From Kordiimonadales bacterium (lineage in GTDB: Bacteria > Pseudomonadota > Alphaproteobacteria > Sphingomonadales > Kordiimonadaceae), in NCBI GenBank assembly GCA_015485385.1, contig WFTS01000136.1, positions 1 to 64,000 on the forward strand: a DNA stretch of 64,000 nucleotides, read 5' to 3'. Below the pieces are notes generated by a model that did no database searches, was not told the DNA's origin, and saw only the letters and a program-made list of their open reading frames with translations. Numbering within the stretch: the stretch's first letter is position 1; every line of letters starts with the position of its first letter. Positions 7,430 to 13,604 of the stretch are shown here, one piece after another. The position numbers and the translations under genes are program-made.

Positions 7430-7537
7430 TGTGAAAATTATGCCCGCAACGAACCCGATGCTCGAAACGAACCTGATGCCCGAAACGAAATTCATGTCTG
7501 ATACGAAATTCATCCCCAAGATGAAGCCCATGCCTGA
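7430..7537. repeat. 18-bp degenerate tandem repeat, 5-6 units
   Basis: Units run 7448-7465, 7466-7483, 7484-7501, 7502-7519 and 7520-7537, with a weaker copy before 7448. The core is AACGAAccTGATGCCCGA. Read on either strand it gives a repetitive peptide (ARNEPD on the plus strand), but no ribosome-binding site or coding bias supports translation. The array stops just short of the 5'-nucleotidase ribosome-binding region (AAGG at 7541-7544). Confidence 0.8.
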
Positions 7538-7552
7538 AACAAGGATACTAAA

Positions 7553-9118
7553 ATGAAAACCCTGCCCCGGATTGTGACTGTATTTTTTCTTGCGCTTGGC
7601 GCAGCGCTTGTGCCGTCTGTTGGTGTGGTGGCGGCCGATAAAACCGTAACCCTCTTGTTCACCAATGATGTGGAAAGCGCATATGATCCGATCCCGGCAC
7701 ATTGGCGCGACGATATGGATATGATCGGCGGCATCGCGGAGATGACCACCCTTATTCGCTCTTACCGCAAAACCGAACCCAATGTGTTCTTGTTTGATGC
7801 AGGGGATATTTTTACCGGATCTTTAGCAAAAGAAACCAAGGGCGCGCTGGCTTTCGAGCTGATGACAACCATGGGCTATGATGCAATGGGCATTGGGAAT
7901 CACGAATTTGAATATGGCGTTGAAATTTTTGCTTGGGCGAAAAACCGAGCGCCGTTTCCTGTGCTGGGTGCCAATATGTTTTACCGGGGTACTGACCATC
8001 CGTTTGCCCAAGCGCACGCTATTATCGAACGCGGCGGCATAAGGATCGGCGTGATCGGCATTATGGGCCGGGACGCGGTTAGTGCGATCATTCCGTCAAA
8101 TATCGCAGCCCTTGATGTGCGGGACGAGGCCGCAGCGGTCCAGAAATCAGTAGATGCAATTCGGGATGATGTTGATCTTATTGTCTTGTTGACCCACGAA
8201 GGCAAAACCGCACCAATGCAAACTGACGCTGAAAGTGACCCGCGTCTGCAGCGTGATATTGATGCCGATATCCGCCTTGCCGGGGCTGTGAAAGGGGTTG
8301 ATATATTGCTGGCGGGTCACGCGGATGCGGGAACGCTTGCGCCCGTGGTCCACCCCAAAACGGGCACGCTGATTATGCAAACCTATGGGCAAGCAACGCA
8401 TTTGGGCTATTTGCAACTGGTGCTGGACGACACCACAGGCCGCATAAAATCTTATGACGGCACGTTGGTGCCGATAAATGCTGCCTCTTTAAAGCCAGAC
8501 CCTCTGATTGCGGCTAAATTGGCCAAATATCGCGCCCGTTTTCCAAAGCTGTTTGAAAAAGTTGGCACGTCGGGGGCTTTTATGGCGCGGAAATATATTG
8601 AAGAATCAGATGTGGGCAATCTGTTTGCCGATGTAATCCGCGAGGCCGCAGGCACACAGCTTTCTTTCATTCATGCGGGCAGTCTCAGGAAGGACATCCC
8701 AAAAGGGGATCTAACACGGGCTGACCTTTTAGACGTATATCCTTTTGTGGACGCTGTGATGCGTTTCACCATAACGGGTGCTCAGTTGCGCGATATTTTA
8801 GAGCAGTCCCTAAGCCAAGAGCGCGGCTTGATGCAGATATCGGGCTTTACCACTGGGTATGATTACACCCGGCCCCTAGGCCAGCGGTTGGTGTTCATGC
8901 GCTATGAAGGGCGGGACATTAAACCCGAGGACAGTTTTACAGCGGCAGCGCCCGGATTTTTGGCAGAAGGCGGCGACCTGTTCACCATGTTTGCTGAAAG
9001 CGGAAAGCAAACCCGCGTGGGAACGGTTGCGGATATTATCACTGCCTATTTCGCGCGCGGAGACATTGTTTTGCCGCCCAAGCAAGGCAGGCAGCTAGAT
9101 AAAGCAGCCGCCAAGTGA
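7553..9118 (+). CDS. Secreted 5'-nucleotidase / metallophosphatase family protein
   Basis: A 521-residue UshA-like protein: signal peptide (about 1-28, ending GVVAA), metallophosphatase domain, then a 5'-nucleotidase C-terminal domain with the substrate-binding stretch FLAEGGDLF. Metal-site motifs are FTNDVES (D39), AGDIFTG (D85), GNHEFE (N116, H117), LLTHEG and LAGHAD. Residue 41 is Glu where UshA-type enzymes have a metal-binding His (D-x-H), a real departure. The likely role is periplasmic hydrolysis of nucleotides or sugar nucleotides for phosphate and nucleoside scavenging. It sits alone, behind a long gap with repeats and an operator-like dyad, and ends in a hairpin. Confidence 0.88.
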   Translation: MKTLPRIVTVFFLALGAALVPSVGVVAADKTVTLLFTNDVESAYDPIPAHWRDDMDMIGGIAEMTTLIRSYRKTEPNVFLFDAGDIFTGSLAKETKGALAFELMTTMGYDAMGIGNHEFEYGVEIFAWAKNRAPFPVLGANMFYRGTDHPFAQAHAIIERGGIRIGVIGIMGRDAVSAIIPSNIAALDVRDEAAAVQKSVDAIRDDVDLIVLLTHEGKTAPMQTDAESDPRLQRDIDADIRLAGAVKGVDILLAGHADAGTLAPVVHPKTGTLIMQTYGQATHLGYLQLVLDDTTGRIKSYDGTLVPINAASLKPDPLIAAKLAKYRARFPKLFEKVGTSGAFMARKYIEESDVGNLFADVIREAAGTQLSFIHAGSLRKDIPKGDLTRADLLDVYPFVDAVMRFTITGAQLRDILEQSLSQERGLMQISGFTTGYDYTRPLGQRLVFMRYEGRDIKPEDSFTAAAPGFLAEGGDLFTMFAESGKQTRVGTVADIITAYFARGDIVLPPKQGRQLDKAAAK

Positions 9119-9129
9119 ATAAGAAGGGG

Positions 9130-9162
9130 GCTTAGCCTCGGCACACTATAGTGCTTCTAAGC
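9130..9162 (+). terminator. Hairpin after the 5'-nucleotidase gene
   Basis: GCTTAG-cctcg-GCAC-actata-GTGC-tt-CTAAGC forms a two-part stem 11 nt after the stop codon. The T-rich CTCTTTT comes about 10 nt later, so the terminator call is moderate. Confidence 0.5.
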
Positions 9163-9174
9163 ATAAAGGCCCTC

Positions 9175-9340
9175 TTTTGTGATCCCCCCTTTGTGAGCTC
9201 CCCTTGTGATCAGGGCGGGGGCGACGGCGCCCCGTCAGCTTTGCGCCTGCGCCCCGTCAGCTCCCCCCGTCAGCTTTCAGGGGAAGCCTCAGCCAGCTTT
9301 CAGGCGAAACCTACGCGGCGCTTGAGCGCCACTTGAGTAA
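9175..9340. repeat. Dispersed intergenic element, copy A
   Basis: This GC-rich stretch shares three blocks in the same order with 23731-23894: a 5' block TTTGTGATCCCCCC, a middle block with GTGATCAG and GCGCCCCG, and a 3' block TTTCAGGCGAAACCTA followed by GCGGCGCTTGAGCGCC and CTTGAGTA. The 3' block contains a small hairpin GGCGC-ttga-GCGCC whose stem survives in the other copy through a G-U change. Internally CCCGTCAGCT repeats three times. It lies between convergent genes. Confidence 0.8.
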
Positions 9341-9358
9341 CGCCCGCTTGGAAAGACG

Positions 9359-10156
9359 TTAGTTTGCTAATATCTGTGGATTGGCCGTATTTTCTTGTGG
9401 CGCTTGGGCGGGGTTTAGAAGTTGGTTCCAAGCTGCAAGATCGCCATTGGAGAGCGAGGCTTTTTGTTTTAACTTTCTGGCGTCAAGCACGGTCATTACG
9501 CCGCGACCAACTTGGCAAACCCCTTCTTTTTGAAGGCCCCTTAAAATTCGGTTCATATGGACTTTCGACGTGCCGACGAGATCAGCTAATATTTCCTGTG
9601 TAACCGAAATGGACACACTATAAGGCCGTAAGTCGCCATATAAAGAGAGGCTGATTATGATAAATTCACGGCATAAGCGCTCTTCGGCGCTATTATGGGT
9701 TAATTCGTAACATTTTCTGGAAAGCCGCCACAACACACGGGCGGTTACGGCTTGAAAATATTTAAAAAAAGCGTCTTCACGGCGGACATACTGCGTGAAT
9801 ATATCCATATCAATAGAACACAGGGTTACCTCCCCCATGGCACGCACTTTATAGTTAATGTTTTTGTCAAAAAACGCTGGAAATCCTAGTATTTTACCCG
9901 AATTATAAAGGCCGCCTATCGTGCGGTCACCCTTTTCATTGGTCCGGAAAGTAAAGGCCCAGCCTTTGTGAATGTGAGAAATTCTGTCACTGCCAGCGAC
10001 TGTGTTCAGCAGGTGGTTGGGCGCCAATTTATGCTGATGTATGGTGAGGCGGGGGCCGGGCATGCGAACGTTATTGGGGAAGACACAGCCCAAAGCATCA
10101 TCATGATGCGAGCATAACTTGCACAGTTTCGTCAAAGATATCTTCCCATTTAACAA
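9359..10156 (-). CDS. Crp/Fnr-family regulator with an FNR-type cysteine cluster
   Basis: A 265-residue protein: an N-terminal segment with C12-x2-C15-x8-C24, a cyclic-nucleotide-fold domain (about 35-150) with C113 at the position of the fourth FNR ligand, and a winged HTH near 180-225 (VTQEILADLVGTSKVHMNRI). The four cysteines suggest an oxygen-labile [4Fe-4S] cluster, as in FNR and FnrL, although the x8 spacing is slightly long. The recognition helix has SKVHMNR, not the FNR-type ETxSR, so its DNA site probably differs from TTGAT-N4-ATCAA. The start is TTG at 10156 with GAGG upstream; starting at the next ATG (MPGPRL) would delete the cysteine cluster. It is divergent from the STAS gene. 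Confidence 0.88.
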   Translation of the reverse strand: MLNGKISLTKLCKLCSHHDDALGCVFPNNVRMPGPRLTIHQHKLAPNHLLNTVAGSDRISHIHKGWAFTFRTNEKGDRTIGGLYNSGKILGFPAFFDKNINYKVRAMGEVTLCSIDMDIFTQYVRREDAFFKYFQAVTARVLWRLSRKCYELTHNSAEERLCREFIIISLSLYGDLRPYSVSISVTQEILADLVGTSKVHMNRILRGLQKEGVCQVGRGVMTVLDARKLKQKASLSNGDLAAWNQLLNPAQAPQENTANPQILAN

Positions 10157-10201
10157 GGCGCCTCACACGCACCTATACTTGTACCTATTCAATATTAGGC
10201 C

Positions 10202-10216
10202 TGTTAACTCATAACA
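10202..10216. promoter_or_regulatory. Dyad TGTTA-N5-TAACA upstream of the Crp-family gene
   Basis: TGTTA (10202-10206) and TAACA (10212-10216) are a perfect dyad with a 5-nt spacer, about 46 bp upstream of the TTG start of the regulator. The size and symmetry suit a homodimeric regulator, possibly autoregulation. A second dyad CCTA-N8-TAGG lies immediately closer to the gene. Confidence 0.45.
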
Positions 10217-10320
10217 AAACCCCAAAAAGTTAATCTATGTTATTAATAAAGTGAACTATAGCGCCTGTATTTGACTGTAGCGGTTATTTTCTAAAGGGTA
10301 AACAACCTCAGATATAGACG

Positions 10321-10374
10321 AAATACTACAAGAGTTTATATGGCTTAAGCATGATTTATAATAGCGTAGTATTT
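10321..10374. repeat. 9-bp inverted repeat AAATACTAC / GTAGTATTT
   Basis: Perfect inverted repeat, arms at 10321-10329 and 10366-10374, separated by 36 AT-rich bases, in the middle of the divergent region. It could be a looped operator or a weak hairpin. Confidence 0.5.
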
Positions 10375-10466
10375 TCAAAGCAGTAATAGTTTGTTTGTCT
10401 TTATATATATCATGAAATAGTCAACTTGAGGTTAACATAGGTTAGTAAATAAGATGTATAAGTTGC

Positions 10467-10663
10467 CCCTCGCCAAGCAAGACAAGAGGGTGTTACACTT
10501 TACCTAAGGACAGTTTTCCCTTGGGGGTCTTTTGAATTACCGGATGTGAGCGGTAATATTCAATTTTTCAAAAACCTAGGTCTCGGAAAATTCGGGGGGA
10601 TTTTCGCGGTAAGGCTGGTGGCTAACGCCTTCAGTCTTACCGTGCGTAATTTTTAAAAATTAC
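10467..10663 (+). ncRNA. Structured 5' leader of the STAS gene, candidate cis-regulatory RNA
   Basis: Six successive hairpins can be drawn by eye: CCCTC/GAGGG (10467-10490); CCTAAGG/CCTTGGG (10503-10525); ATTACCG/CGGTAAT (10536-10557); GAAAAT/ATTTTC (10586-10605); CGGTAAG...CTTACCG with inner CTG/CAG and GGC/GCC pairs (10607-10642); and the perfect 18-nt palindrome GTAATTTTTAAAAATTAC (10646-10663). The last one directly abuts the Shine-Dalgarno AGGAGG (10664-10669). Arms of the third and fifth hairpins can swap partners (ATTACCG with CGGTAAG, CGGTAAT with CTTACCG), giving alternative folds. It matches no riboswitch core I know. Confidence 0.55.
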
Positions 10664-10676
10664 AGGAGGCGGAAAT

Positions 10677-11162
10677 ATGAATTATCAAATTCAAAAAGAA
10701 GGGGAAACCCTAATGCAGGCCAGTGAATTCGACGGTGAATTCGACGGTGAATTTACCATGGAAAACTGTATGGGCAGTGATCTGAAAGTTCAGGTTACCG
10801 GGGATTTGAATTTTGGCGATCACGGCGAATGGCGTGAAATGTTTGAATATATTTTGGCGATGAAACCGCAGAAGATCAGCTTGGACCTGACAGATCTGGT
10901 TGCGTTTGATTCTGCGGCGCTTGGGCTGATTTTAATTTTTCATGCCAAAGCCGTAAATGAAAAAATAAAATTTGAGATTATTCAGCCTGAGACAGGGTTT
11001 TTGCGACATGCTTTAGGCTGTACGGATATCATCTGTCCTACCGGCGTTCGTTGTAACCCCGCAGCCTGCCATCCAAACCGCATGTATCCCGGGCAGATTA
11101 TTGATACCCCAGCCAAGCTTGAAGATTGGGAAGGGGTTTTCGGGTTTCTTCAGGTGAATTGA
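10677..11162 (+). CDS. STAS-domain (anti-anti-sigma-like) protein with a cysteine-rich tail
   Basis: 161 residues. Residues 36-114 form a STAS domain: strand LKVQVTGDLNF, then ISLDLTDLVAFDSAALGLI, where S79 sits at the phosphorylated serine position of SpoIIAA-like proteins. A tail follows with C115, C120, C126, C131 and H132, then a polar end. Such domains relay signals by binding anti-sigma kinases or act as parts of signalling complexes; the cysteines could hold zinc or an Fe-S cluster, or sense redox. No partner kinase or sigma factor is adjacent. The start at 10677 has a perfect AGGAGG. The first 27 residues include a duplicated EFDG encoded by a DNA duplication. Orthologues are unknown to me. 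Confidence 0.75.
   Translation: MNYQIQKEGETLMQASEFDGEFDGEFTMENCMGSDLKVQVTGDLNFGDHGEWREMFEYILAMKPQKISLDLTDLVAFDSAALGLILIFHAKAVNEKIKFEIIQPETGFLRHALGCTDIICPTGVRCNPAACHPNRMYPGQIIDTPAKLEDWEGVFGFLQVN
10725..10757. repeat. In-frame 12-bp duplication in the STAS gene
   Basis: GAATTCGACGGT at 10725-10736 is repeated exactly at 10737-10748 and begins a third time (GAATTTACC). It encodes EFDG-EFDG-EFT in the linker before the STAS domain. Confidence 0.9.
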
Positions 11163-11171
11163 AAATCCTTA

Positions 11172-11232
11172 TAGATGTGAGCCTCATACATATGAGCCCC
11201 ATATTTATGAGATTATATTATGAGACTATAAA
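11172..11232. repeat. Degenerate 13-17 bp tandem repeat after the STAS gene
   Basis: Four variants of ATGTGAGCCTCATAC / ATATGAGCCCCATATTT / ATGAGATTATATT / ATGAGACTATAAA run head to tail, starting 9 bp after the stop codon. The gap lies between convergent genes. Confidence 0.6.
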
Positions 11233-11274
11233 AGACACGTGGGACTGCGGGGTTTGCTTTGCAGTTCTGCGCCT

Positions 11275-11694
11275 TTAAGAAACCGGCTCTAGCAGGTCTT
11301 TGTTCATCAGCTTGGCCTCAAAGGCTTGGAGGTCTTGCTCCAAGTCATGAATAAGCTCCAATTCAAACTTGCGGTCTGCAAGCGTGCGTGACAGCGGTTG
11401 ATGCGCGCCGTTTTGGGTTTTTAACTTTACTTCTAAAAGCAGGTTTTTGGCGTCTAAAATATCGTGGGCGATGGACGGCCTGTTTAATTCGAATAAGGTT
11501 GTTAGTTTGTTTTGGGCTTCGTCGCTTTGTGTAACATCTGCGCTTTGTACGCGGGCAAGCGTTTCCATTTTATCGAAGGCGGCCCGTATTTTACTGACCT
11601 TCAGTTCCAGCGCAGCCTCTAATTGGCCCACTTTACTTTCTTCAGAAATACGTTTTGTCGAATCCCGAAGAGTGTTTTCAAATCCAAAATGCAT
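11275..11694 (-). CDS. Hypothetical helical/coiled-coil protein
   Basis: 139 residues, no signal peptide and no membrane segment. It is almost entirely charged helix with heptad-like spacing (for example SKVGQLEAALELKVSKIRAA and FELELIHDLEQDLQAFEAKL). The ATG at 11694 has GGAGG 9 nt upstream, so translation is well supported. I do not recognise the family. It is convergent with the STAS gene and divergent from the LysR gene, so it could be the LysR target; that is inference from position only. Confidence 0.7.
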   Translation of the reverse strand: MHFGFENTLRDSTKRISEESKVGQLEAALELKVSKIRAAFDKMETLARVQSADVTQSDEAQNKLTTLFELNRPSIAHDILDAKNLLLEVKLKTQNGAHQPLSRTLADRKFELELIHDLEQDLQAFEAKLMNKDLLEPVS

Positions 11695-11820
11695 AGCGTG
11701 CCTCCAATGTGTTTTTCACCATGGATCAAACGTAAGCCCTAAATAATATTTTAAAAGCGAATATATTTGATATATAATATCGAATATTTAGATTTAAAAT
11801 AGGATTTGGAGGGCAAACGC

Positions 11821-12708
11821 GTGGATATTACGCAAGCCAAAACCTTTTTAACCATTGTTGAACAGCGCAATTTTAACCGAGCCGCAGAGAAGCTGTTTGT
11901 GACCCAGTCTACCGTAAGTGCGCGGGTGAAAACGCTGGAAAACGAGCTTGGTTGCACATTGTTTGTGCGCAATAAGGCAGGCGTAACCTTAACGAGCGCG
12001 GCGAAGCGGTTTGAAAAACATGCTCAATCCATTGTGCAACTGTGGAACCACGCCCGGCGTGAGATTGCAGCGGGTGAAAAGATCGACCAATCGATCACTA
12101 TTGGTGCGCGCTTTGGTCTGTGGGAACCCCTTTTGCTGGATTGGTTGCCTGCTTTGAAAGACAAATTTCCGCGCGCGATGATTGGTGCTCGCATTGGAAC
12201 AGCCGATTCGCTGATCCAGCAAATGCACAGCGGGGCGATGGATGTGTGTTTGGTATATGCGCCGTTTAGCAATCCGGGCCTACGGGTTATAAAATTGTTT
12301 GATGAGCAGTTTATTCTGCTGTCCAGTAAAGAGACAAAGCCAGATTTAGGCGTGACCCATTTGCCGTCCACCAGTGCGCTGCCAGACGATTATATATATG
12401 TCGATTGGGGCAATGAATTTGCCCGGCAACATGCGCTTTTATACCCGAATTATACCGGCAGCCTGTTATCGGCTAATTTGGGCGCGTTGGCGCAGGCTTT
12501 GATTATCAGCACACAAGGCGCAGGATACCTGCCACTGCGAACGGCTGCCGAGGCTATGGCGCACGGTGACTTGCACAGGCTAGTGGATGCACCCTCCATC
12601 ACGCTGCCGGTTTATATGGTGTATAGCGAACTGATGGAGGCCGACACGCTGGCCTATATCCAAACAAGCCTAACCGAGCGCTGCGGCGATTTTAGCGGTG
12701 GTCTTTAA
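11821..12708 (+). CDS. LysR-family transcriptional regulator
   Basis: 295 residues. The N-terminal winged HTH (about 1-60) reads DITQAKTFLTIVEQRNFNRAAEKLFVTQSTVSARVKTLE, the classic LysR pattern; the remainder is a periplasmic-binding-like effector domain. The GTG at 11821 is chosen because GGAGGG lies 9 nt upstream and the protein then begins right at the HTH; an in-frame TTG at 11806 would bury that site. The divergent neighbour (small helical protein) is a natural candidate target, with a 126-bp AT-rich gap between them. The effector is not predictable. Confidence 0.92.
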   Translation: MDITQAKTFLTIVEQRNFNRAAEKLFVTQSTVSARVKTLENELGCTLFVRNKAGVTLTSAAKRFEKHAQSIVQLWNHARREIAAGEKIDQSITIGARFGLWEPLLLDWLPALKDKFPRAMIGARIGTADSLIQQMHSGAMDVCLVYAPFSNPGLRVIKLFDEQFILLSSKETKPDLGVTHLPSTSALPDDYIYVDWGNEFARQHALLYPNYTGSLLSANLGALAQALIISTQGAGYLPLRTAAEAMAHGDLHRLVDAPSITLPVYMVYSELMEADTLAYIQTSLTERCGDFSGGL

Positions 12709-12793
12709 AGGGGGATTAAAGCGGTTATCAGGCAGTGAAAGCGTGCGATTTTCGGCCCTAGTATAAAGAAGCCCTTCAGGCGTATAGATTAGC

Positions 12794-12822
12794 TTGCAAA
12801 GCGCAGAACTACGCTGTATACA
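12794..12822 (+). promoter_or_regulatory. Promoter of rpmI-rplT
   Basis: TTGCAA (12794-12799), a 17-nt spacer, and TATACA (12817-12822), about 85 nt upstream of rpmI. The match to a housekeeping promoter is good, and infC, often first in this operon, is absent, so rpmI needs its own promoter here. Confidence 0.65.
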
Positions 12823-13150: not shown

Positions 13151-13510
13151 ATGGCTCGTGTTAAACGCGGTGTAGTATCGCACGCTCGTCACAAGAAGGT
13201 ACTCGAAGAAGCCAAAGGCTATCGGGGCCGCCGTAAGAATACCATTAAAGTTGCTCGTCAGGCTGTTGAAAAAGCAGGCCAGTATGCATACCGCGACCGC
13301 AAGGCCAAGAAGCGCACCTTCCGCGCCCTTTGGATCCAGCGCATTAACGCGGGTTCACGCGCGCTGGGCTTGCCGTACGGCCAGTTTATGCACGGGCTGA
13401 GCCTCGCAGGCGTTGAATTAGACCGTAAAGTCCTAAGTGACCTTGCTGTCCACGAACAAGCCGCTTTTGCAAGCTTAGTAGAACAGGCCAAGGCCGCTCT
13501 AGCTAAGTAA
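13151..13510 (+). CDS. rplT: 50S ribosomal protein L20
   Basis: 119 residues: [40 protein letters not shown] and [13 protein letters not shown] are hallmark L20 sequences. It is an early-assembly 23S rRNA-binding protein; in other bacteria it represses its own operon. The ribosome-binding site GGAGAAAT precedes the ATG. A hairpin terminator follows before pheS. Confidence 0.98.
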
Positions 13511-13565
13511 GCTCGGTTTATTTTAAACCAAAGCTGGGTCACGGACGTGACCAATGTTATTTAGA

Positions 13566-13604
13566 GGGGCCTTCGCCGGTTTGGCGGGGTCCCTTTTCTT
13601 ATTT
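13566..13604 (+). terminator. Terminator or attenuator between rplT and pheS
   Basis: Outer stem GGGGCC/GGTCCC (13566-13571, 13588-13593) and inner stem CGCC/GGCG, followed by TTTTCTTATTTT. It could end the ribosomal transcript or act as an attenuator for pheST; no leader peptide rich in Phe codons is visible in front of it. Confidence 0.8.

Follow-up and report, generated by a model that had tools for sequence, protein, structure and literature searches.

A strongly folded coding-strand leader directly upstream of an orphan STAS-domain gene in a Kordiimonadales bacterium

A candidate riboswitch in front of STAS genes has been described from Streptomyces, i.e., the dauA motif (SRC-36-1), for which 57 representatives are reported (PMC11109978). 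As outlined in the consulted sections of that paper, three stems of the motif meet in a junction that also takes in the putative Shine-Dalgarno (SD) sequence, and the motif is proposed to block ribosome binding (PMC11109978). Judged from these sections it is the closest published case found, and literature searches retrieved neither further work on the dauA motif beyond PMC11109978 nor any work on riboswitches in Kordiimonas. The leader examined here spans positions 10467-10676 on the + strand of the window (i.e., the whole stretch of 64,000 nucleotides that was analysed, from a 2.97-Mb genome that is 93% complete in 167 contigs) and lies directly 5′ of a STAS-domain gene (10677-11162, + strand, encoding 161 aa), with the SD sequence AGGAGG at 10664-10669, 7 nt before the ATG. 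Chains of hairpins before the SD sequence are a feature of the ROSE and fourU RNA thermometers, the ROSE element being marked by UYGCU, and leaders controlled by CsrA/RsmA display GGA motifs at hairpin tops and in the SD sequence.

An earlier, sequence-only reading of this DNA had proposed that six hairpins fill the leader, and all of them are indeed present in the predicted + strand ensemble, with pair probabilities of 0.71–1.0 that mostly exceed 0.85. The 5′ half comprises H1 (10467-10490; 5 bp, 14-nt loop; pair probabilities 0.87–0.91), H2 (10503-10525; 7 bp; 0.81–0.92), and H3 (10537-10556; TTACCG-loop-CGGTAA; 0.71–0.96), the last of which has its 6-mer in common with P3 and is the sole terminator-like site in 10150-11300 (1 found vs. 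1.2 expected). The 3′ half is best modelled as a four-way junction in which P2 (10586-10605; 8 bp, GGGG loop; 0.94–0.98), P3 (10606-10643; 16 bp, one U/U mismatch, UAAC loop; 0.72–1.0, with 14 of the 16 pairs at 0.99 or more), and P4 (10646-10663; 0.72–1.0) would be closed by P1. This modelled junction is compact, leaving 0–2 unpaired bases from one helix to the next (P1–P4). P1 itself consists of 5 bp, including one G-T pair, between GTCTC (10580-10584) and the SD bases 10666-10670 (probability 0.85–0.86 in the fold of 10463-10760). P4 is the 18-nt palindrome GTAATTTTTAAAAATTAC, which was correctly read as touching the ribosome-binding site: it is perfect, abuts AGGAGG and, together with its own 16-nt core, is the sole perfect palindrome of 16, 18, 20, or 22 nt within the 64 kb.

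The stability of the 3′ module (10576-10676, + strand) was computed at a minimum free energy (MFE) of –42.9 kcal/mol vs. a shuffle mean of –23.8 (z of –5.80, with 0/200 shuffles as stable), the centroid being identical to the MFE structure, and the whole leader reached a z of –3.59. The 5′ half with H1–H3 (10463-10579) did not fold beyond chance (z of –1.62, with 8/200 shuffles equally stable). On the – strand, the whole leader scored a z of –2.47 and the module –3.79 (–26.3 kcal/mol; 0/200 shuffles), so that folding is beyond chance there as well, as it would be for DNA inverted repeats. The module fold is weaker on the – strand because P2 and P3 contain four G-T pairs (i.e., 10592-10599, 10606-10643, 10614-10635, and 10618-10631) that turn into C-A there. 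Its greater strength on the + strand points to a coding-strand RNA (i.e., an mRNA), with the caveat that the structure had been picked on the + strand, which partly favours that strand.

For calibration, 536 + strand windows of 120 nt across the 64 kb were scored (533 gridded and 3 placed in the leader). The three overlapping module windows (10557, at –5.4, and 10559, at –4.7, both placed; 10561, at –4.7, from the grid) were among the four lowest, and the only other + strand window at or below –4 (11161, at –5.1, the second lowest of the 536) begins at the STAS stop codon. On the – strand, 1/533 windows reached –4.6. Among overlapping windows from 13 congener loci, 5/2141 scored –5 or lower and 9/2141 scored –4.6 or lower, at least three of the five lowest being plain long hairpins. 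Since module-like scores are thus found in approximately 0.2–0.4% of congener windows, the fold is rare, not unique.

Some further strong folds were recorded. In the window, one extends from the 3′-terminal part of rplT into the adjoining intergenic space (13481-13600, – strand; z of –4.1 to –4.9), and a single congener locus (L069) carries very stable hairpins at 781-900, 2401-2520, and 7501-7620 (z of –5.8 to –6.1), the first of which lies behind the nucleotidase match and the second of which overlaps the start of that match. Directly behind the STAS stop codon, a 15-bp hairpin with many G-T pairs (11238-11271, + strand) sits where the STAS gene and the gene for a 139-aa protein converge. 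The fold of 11150-11290 is beyond chance on the + strand only (z of –3.37, vs. –0.92 on the – strand), and the hairpin could possibly form the 3′ end of the STAS transcript.

A strongly folded coding-strand leader is therefore a real feature in front of this orphan STAS gene, and it plausibly functions in cis. The explanation that we prefer, albeit tentatively, is that the STAS mRNA carries a stable, structured 5′ leader whose action is in cis, at the start of translation. Besides the + strand module fold, its G-T pairs, and the P1 probability, this explanation is favoured by the good SD sequence and its spacing, the intact STAS frame, the + strand hairpin behind the stop codon, and the dauA precedent. 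Counting against it are the chance-level SD pairing and ordinary opening cost (see below), the lack of a relative for covariation, the similar scores in congener windows, and the – strand fold. Transcription of the leader, which we infer, might start from promoter-like sites returned by a site scan, which in itself is not evidence of function: one at 10335-10362 (predicted start ca. 10369), one at 10432 with a 19-nt spacer (predicted start ca. 10469, within H1), a weak candidate at 10532 (start ca. 10567), and further weak sites. In the resulting mRNA, P2, P3, and P4 would stack right before the SD sequence, and the weak 5-bp P1, whose relevance we likewise infer, could clamp SD bases and leave the start partly closed. 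Such a start might be opened by some factor or by the ribosome itself, at approximately 3 kcal/mol for the SD sequence alone, and regulated expression could follow from this.

The modelled cost of access to the start does not single this gene out. Opening the SD sequence alone (10664-10670) takes 3.3 kcal/mol and opening the ribosome site (10659-10692) ca. 10 kcal/mol, with a start-region cost of 11.2 kcal/mol when 117 nt of upstream context are included and of 10.3 with 210 nt. This cost is ordinary, ranking 16 against 52 window genes with a median of 9.5 (these being the ORFs in the window that pass a length threshold of 120 aa, with starts guessed by SD score). Moreover, SD pairing is not beyond chance, as 58/300 shuffles of the 5′ flank (10553-10585) pair the SD sequence equally well. 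These two results lend no support to SD sequestration being a selected feature. Since the module is beyond chance but flank shuffles match its SD pairing, the hairpins are non-random and the SD clamp is unproven.

The ordinary opening cost and the chance-level SD pairing also speak for the most serious rival explanation, which has a substantial chance of being right, i.e., that the hairpins are constitutive and sense no signal, and either protect the mRNA 5′ end, serve the ribosome as a standby structure, or are neutral inverted repeats that remain from how the surrounding islet arose and changed. The recurrence of strong folds in congener loci, at –5 or lower, fits that explanation as well, and so does the absence of the islet from the same place in all 13 of these loci. 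Against it stand the exact position of the module at the SD sequence, the compactness of the junction, and the + strand bias of the fold.

The islet in question (9119-12800) holds four genes, i.e., a Crp/Fnr-type gene, the STAS gene, a gene for a 139-aa protein, and lysR, between a nucleotidase gene and rpmI. Its counterpart positions were located via rplT, which was matched in 15 congeners (16/19 genomes, own included) and of which the surrounding stretch was taken for 13/15. All 13 stretches contain rpmI and rplT, with pyrF and/or the nucleotidase gene upstream within the 9–10 kb taken, and the nucleotidase gene is the one matched next to rpmI in 7/13. Neither crp, the STAS gene, nor the 139-aa gene had a match in the 13 stretches, and lysR had only one match, of 30% (L058). 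Because the ca. 3.7-kb block was not found at this place in the 13 congener loci, it looks like an islet of this lineage. Elsewhere in the genus, the Crp/Fnr gene has one relative at an E of 1e-15 or lower (G009, 34%). Compared with a G+C content of 0.51 for the window, that of lysR is 0.52, while crp, the STAS gene, and the 139-aa gene lie at 0.45–0.46. The islet is bordered on its left side by a G+C-rich intergenic stretch (9215-9310) with repeated CCCCGTCAGCT and CAGCTTTCAGG units.

The Crp/Fnr-type gene (9359-10156), which is divergent to the STAS gene, raises the question of whether the palindromes are DNA operators, for instance for this neighbouring regulator. The perfect palindrome at 10646-10663, an inverted repeat GTCAACTTGAGGTTAAC at 10420-10436, two loose TTG-N8-CAA sites (10179 and 10463), and the – strand fold being beyond chance are all in line with operators. 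Crp/Fnr-type regulators have TGTGA-N6-TCACA and TTGA-N6-TCAA as consensus sites, however, and no exact copy of either was present in 10151-10680. Together with the stronger fold on the + strand and the presence of G-T pairs in both P2 and P3, this makes the operator explanation rather unlikely.

We consider a metabolite riboswitch with two mutually exclusive folds to be improbable. Its attraction is a junction architecture that ends on the SD sequence, along with the fact that Streptomyces already offers a candidate riboswitch linked to STAS genes, as far as the consulted sections describe it (PMC11109978). The sequence-only reading had derived the two folds from cross-complementarity between H3 and P3, of which the 6-nt match TTACCG/CGGTAA does exist, but the exclusive folds are unsupported by energy. 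Against an MFE of –76.9 kcal/mol for the unconstrained fold, folds forced to contain one or the other alternative helix reached only –58.8 and –57.9 kcal/mol, and the pair probabilities were ca. 1e-11. With a penalty of 18–19 kcal/mol, such a switch lacks credibility at equilibrium. In the model, opening of P1 alone is a possible change of fold. The same reading recognised no known riboswitch core, and a check against Rfam release 15 agrees, as no family reached its gathering score (three weak rows at the leader being all far under theirs). The lack of an Rfam match and the single known example further count against a riboswitch.

A leader peptide that couples its own translation to that of the STAS gene (GTG at 10546 to TAA at 10656, 36 aa) is very improbable: no stop interrupts the frame between 10462 and 10656, where it ends inside P4 just before the SD sequence, but its codon score is 0.05 per codon vs. 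0.26 for the STAS gene and 0.11 for the Crp/Fnr gene, 117/1000 shuffles score as high, the GTG is not preceded by an SD sequence (by eye), and no NCBIfam match was obtained.

Finally, the least probable explanation is an RNA thermometer in which the SD region melts. The AT-rich palindrome beside the SD sequence speaks for it, but this palindrome has itself as pairing partner rather than the SD sequence, and the modelled mean unpaired fraction of the SD sequence rises by just 0.02–0.11 from 10 to 45 °C over four leader lengths. Specifically, it amounts to 0.36, 0.40, 0.40, 0.39, 0.40, and 0.55 at 10, 20, 30, 37, 45, and 55 °C for 10463-10760, and between 10 and 45 °C it goes from 0.32 to 0.37 for 10369-10760 and from 0.32 to 0.34 for 10560-10700. 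A thermometer is favoured by the steady rise in the fold of 10463-10700 (0.22, 0.33, and 0.45 at 10, 45, and 55 °C, respectively) and by the AUG in the fold of 10369-10760, which goes from 0.16 to 0.39 unpaired between 10 and 45 °C, and it is disfavoured by the shift of only 0.02–0.05 in the SD sequence over that range in the other three folds.

The gene behind the leader was rightly taken to encode a STAS domain with a cysteine-rich tail. Pfam STAS (PF01740) matches residues 36–105 with 26.5 bits vs. a cut-off of 22.6, cysteines occupy residues 115, 120, 126, and 131, the frame is intact, and both the SD sequence and its spacing are good. TIGR00377 (STAS anti-sigma factor antagonist) scored 26.6 bits, below the NCBIfam cut-off of 53.45. 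In an AlphaFold2 model, blocks of residues 31–110 have a pLDDT of 74–89 and residues 119–131 and 133–161 one below 50, the tail being left unresolved. A DSA(A/G)LG-type motif is common to the STAS protein and six aligned relatives. In the STAS protein it reads DSAALG (10908-10925), so that the residue pair which includes the phosphorylated serine in SpoIIAA has an alanine as its second member here. The N-terminal extension includes a short in-frame repeat encoding EFDGEFDGEF (10725-10754), and the tail (11019-11111) carries CPTGVRCNPAAC and a weak LysM-like NRMYPGQIIDTP; the LysM likeness (E of 0.35 to a SafA chain) was set aside as too weak to use.

STAS protein matches at an E of 1e-3 or lower occur in 12/19 genus and 17/29 family genomes (own included). 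None of these genomes yielded a full-length relative, the non-self matches being 27–39% identical and ending by residue 117. Among 296 order genomes only the own genome matched at an E of 1e-8 (1/296), and among 385 class genomes five did at 1e-7, i.e., the own genome and four others at 30–32% identity. None of 36 candidates was confirmed when a genome contig collection was scanned with the STAS protein. A scan with a 7-sequence STAS alignment yielded 161 relatives, 80 of which were kept (24–45% identity): only 6/80 have matches that start before residue 12, and stop codons interrupt every one of the 11/80 alignments that extend past residue 121. Among the loci compared, only those of the own genome carry the tail strings C-x-NPA-x-C and N-x2-YPGQ, and the Cys-containing tail was not found in the relatives compared. 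A sole locus of the 80 (L147) has two or more cysteines behind the match (8 in 230 residues), and raw hits to a loose Cys pattern occurred at other loci as well. In viral contigs, 0/16 and 0/12 STAS candidates were confirmed, and plasmids and phages gave no match.

The leader DNA is present as a single copy in its own genome and had no match in plasmids. Among the matches listed for 40 relatives, the non-self ones cover 15–48 query bases, with a best E of 0.008. A covariance model, built from the single sequence of the leader, returned only the leader itself and its own reverse complement in the own genome, and 7 non-self matches at a per-genome E of 0.05 or lower in the 296 order genomes. The best E of 0.004 is at chance level over so many genomes. 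Of three of these matches that were inspected, two (L050 and L051) resemble coding sequence by eye, and the third (L054) is the P2 match described below. Across 87 STAS-bearing loci (19, L003–L021; four, L044–L047; and 64 of the 80 kept STAS loci, the other 16 being left out as near-duplicates by organism names and match lines only) the model gave one match, at an E of 1.4 and downstream of the STAS match. At L054, in a congener (G012), 16 nt of P2 recur exactly, before what by eye looks like an Mrp-type gene. This 16-mer was rejected as a shared hairpin: with at most one mismatch it is found in 3/50 genomes (own included; exact in 2) vs. 4/50 for the reversed control, and the recurrence is thus taken as chance. 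With no relative of either the leader or the whole gene found in the collections searched, the role of the leader is not readable from its sequence, and the leader stands as a clear case of a strong single-sequence fold whose confirmation needs relatives.

Compared with known systems, the leader differs from the ROSE and fourU thermometers in having neither UYGCU nor UUUU-SD pairing and little modelled temperature response of its SD sequence. Like CsrA/RsmA-controlled leaders, it carries GGA atop H2 and H3 and in the SD sequence. Control by CsrA is nevertheless disfavoured, since no CsrA (PF02599) was found in the own genome, at its 93% completeness, by a search that was positive in 3/14 control genomes. 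The likeness to the dauA motif, drawn by description and not by sequence from the consulted sections of its source, is that the leader precedes a STAS gene and that its modelled multi-stem junction would contain the SD sequence, although SD pairing here is at chance level. Unlike the three-stem dauA motif, the leader is modelled as a four-way junction and is known from one example, in an alphaproteobacterium. A bolder and unlikely proposal is that it represents a new class of translational-control RNA, i.e., a four-way junction with a basal helix holding the SD sequence, unrelated to the dauA motif but performing the same task, which would sense some ligand or protein with a link to the Cys-rich tail of the encoded product. 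If the leader does control translation, STAS genes would be preceded by an SD-containing junction in two cases that seem to be independent, and this would suggest RNA-based dosage of STAS signalling proteins.
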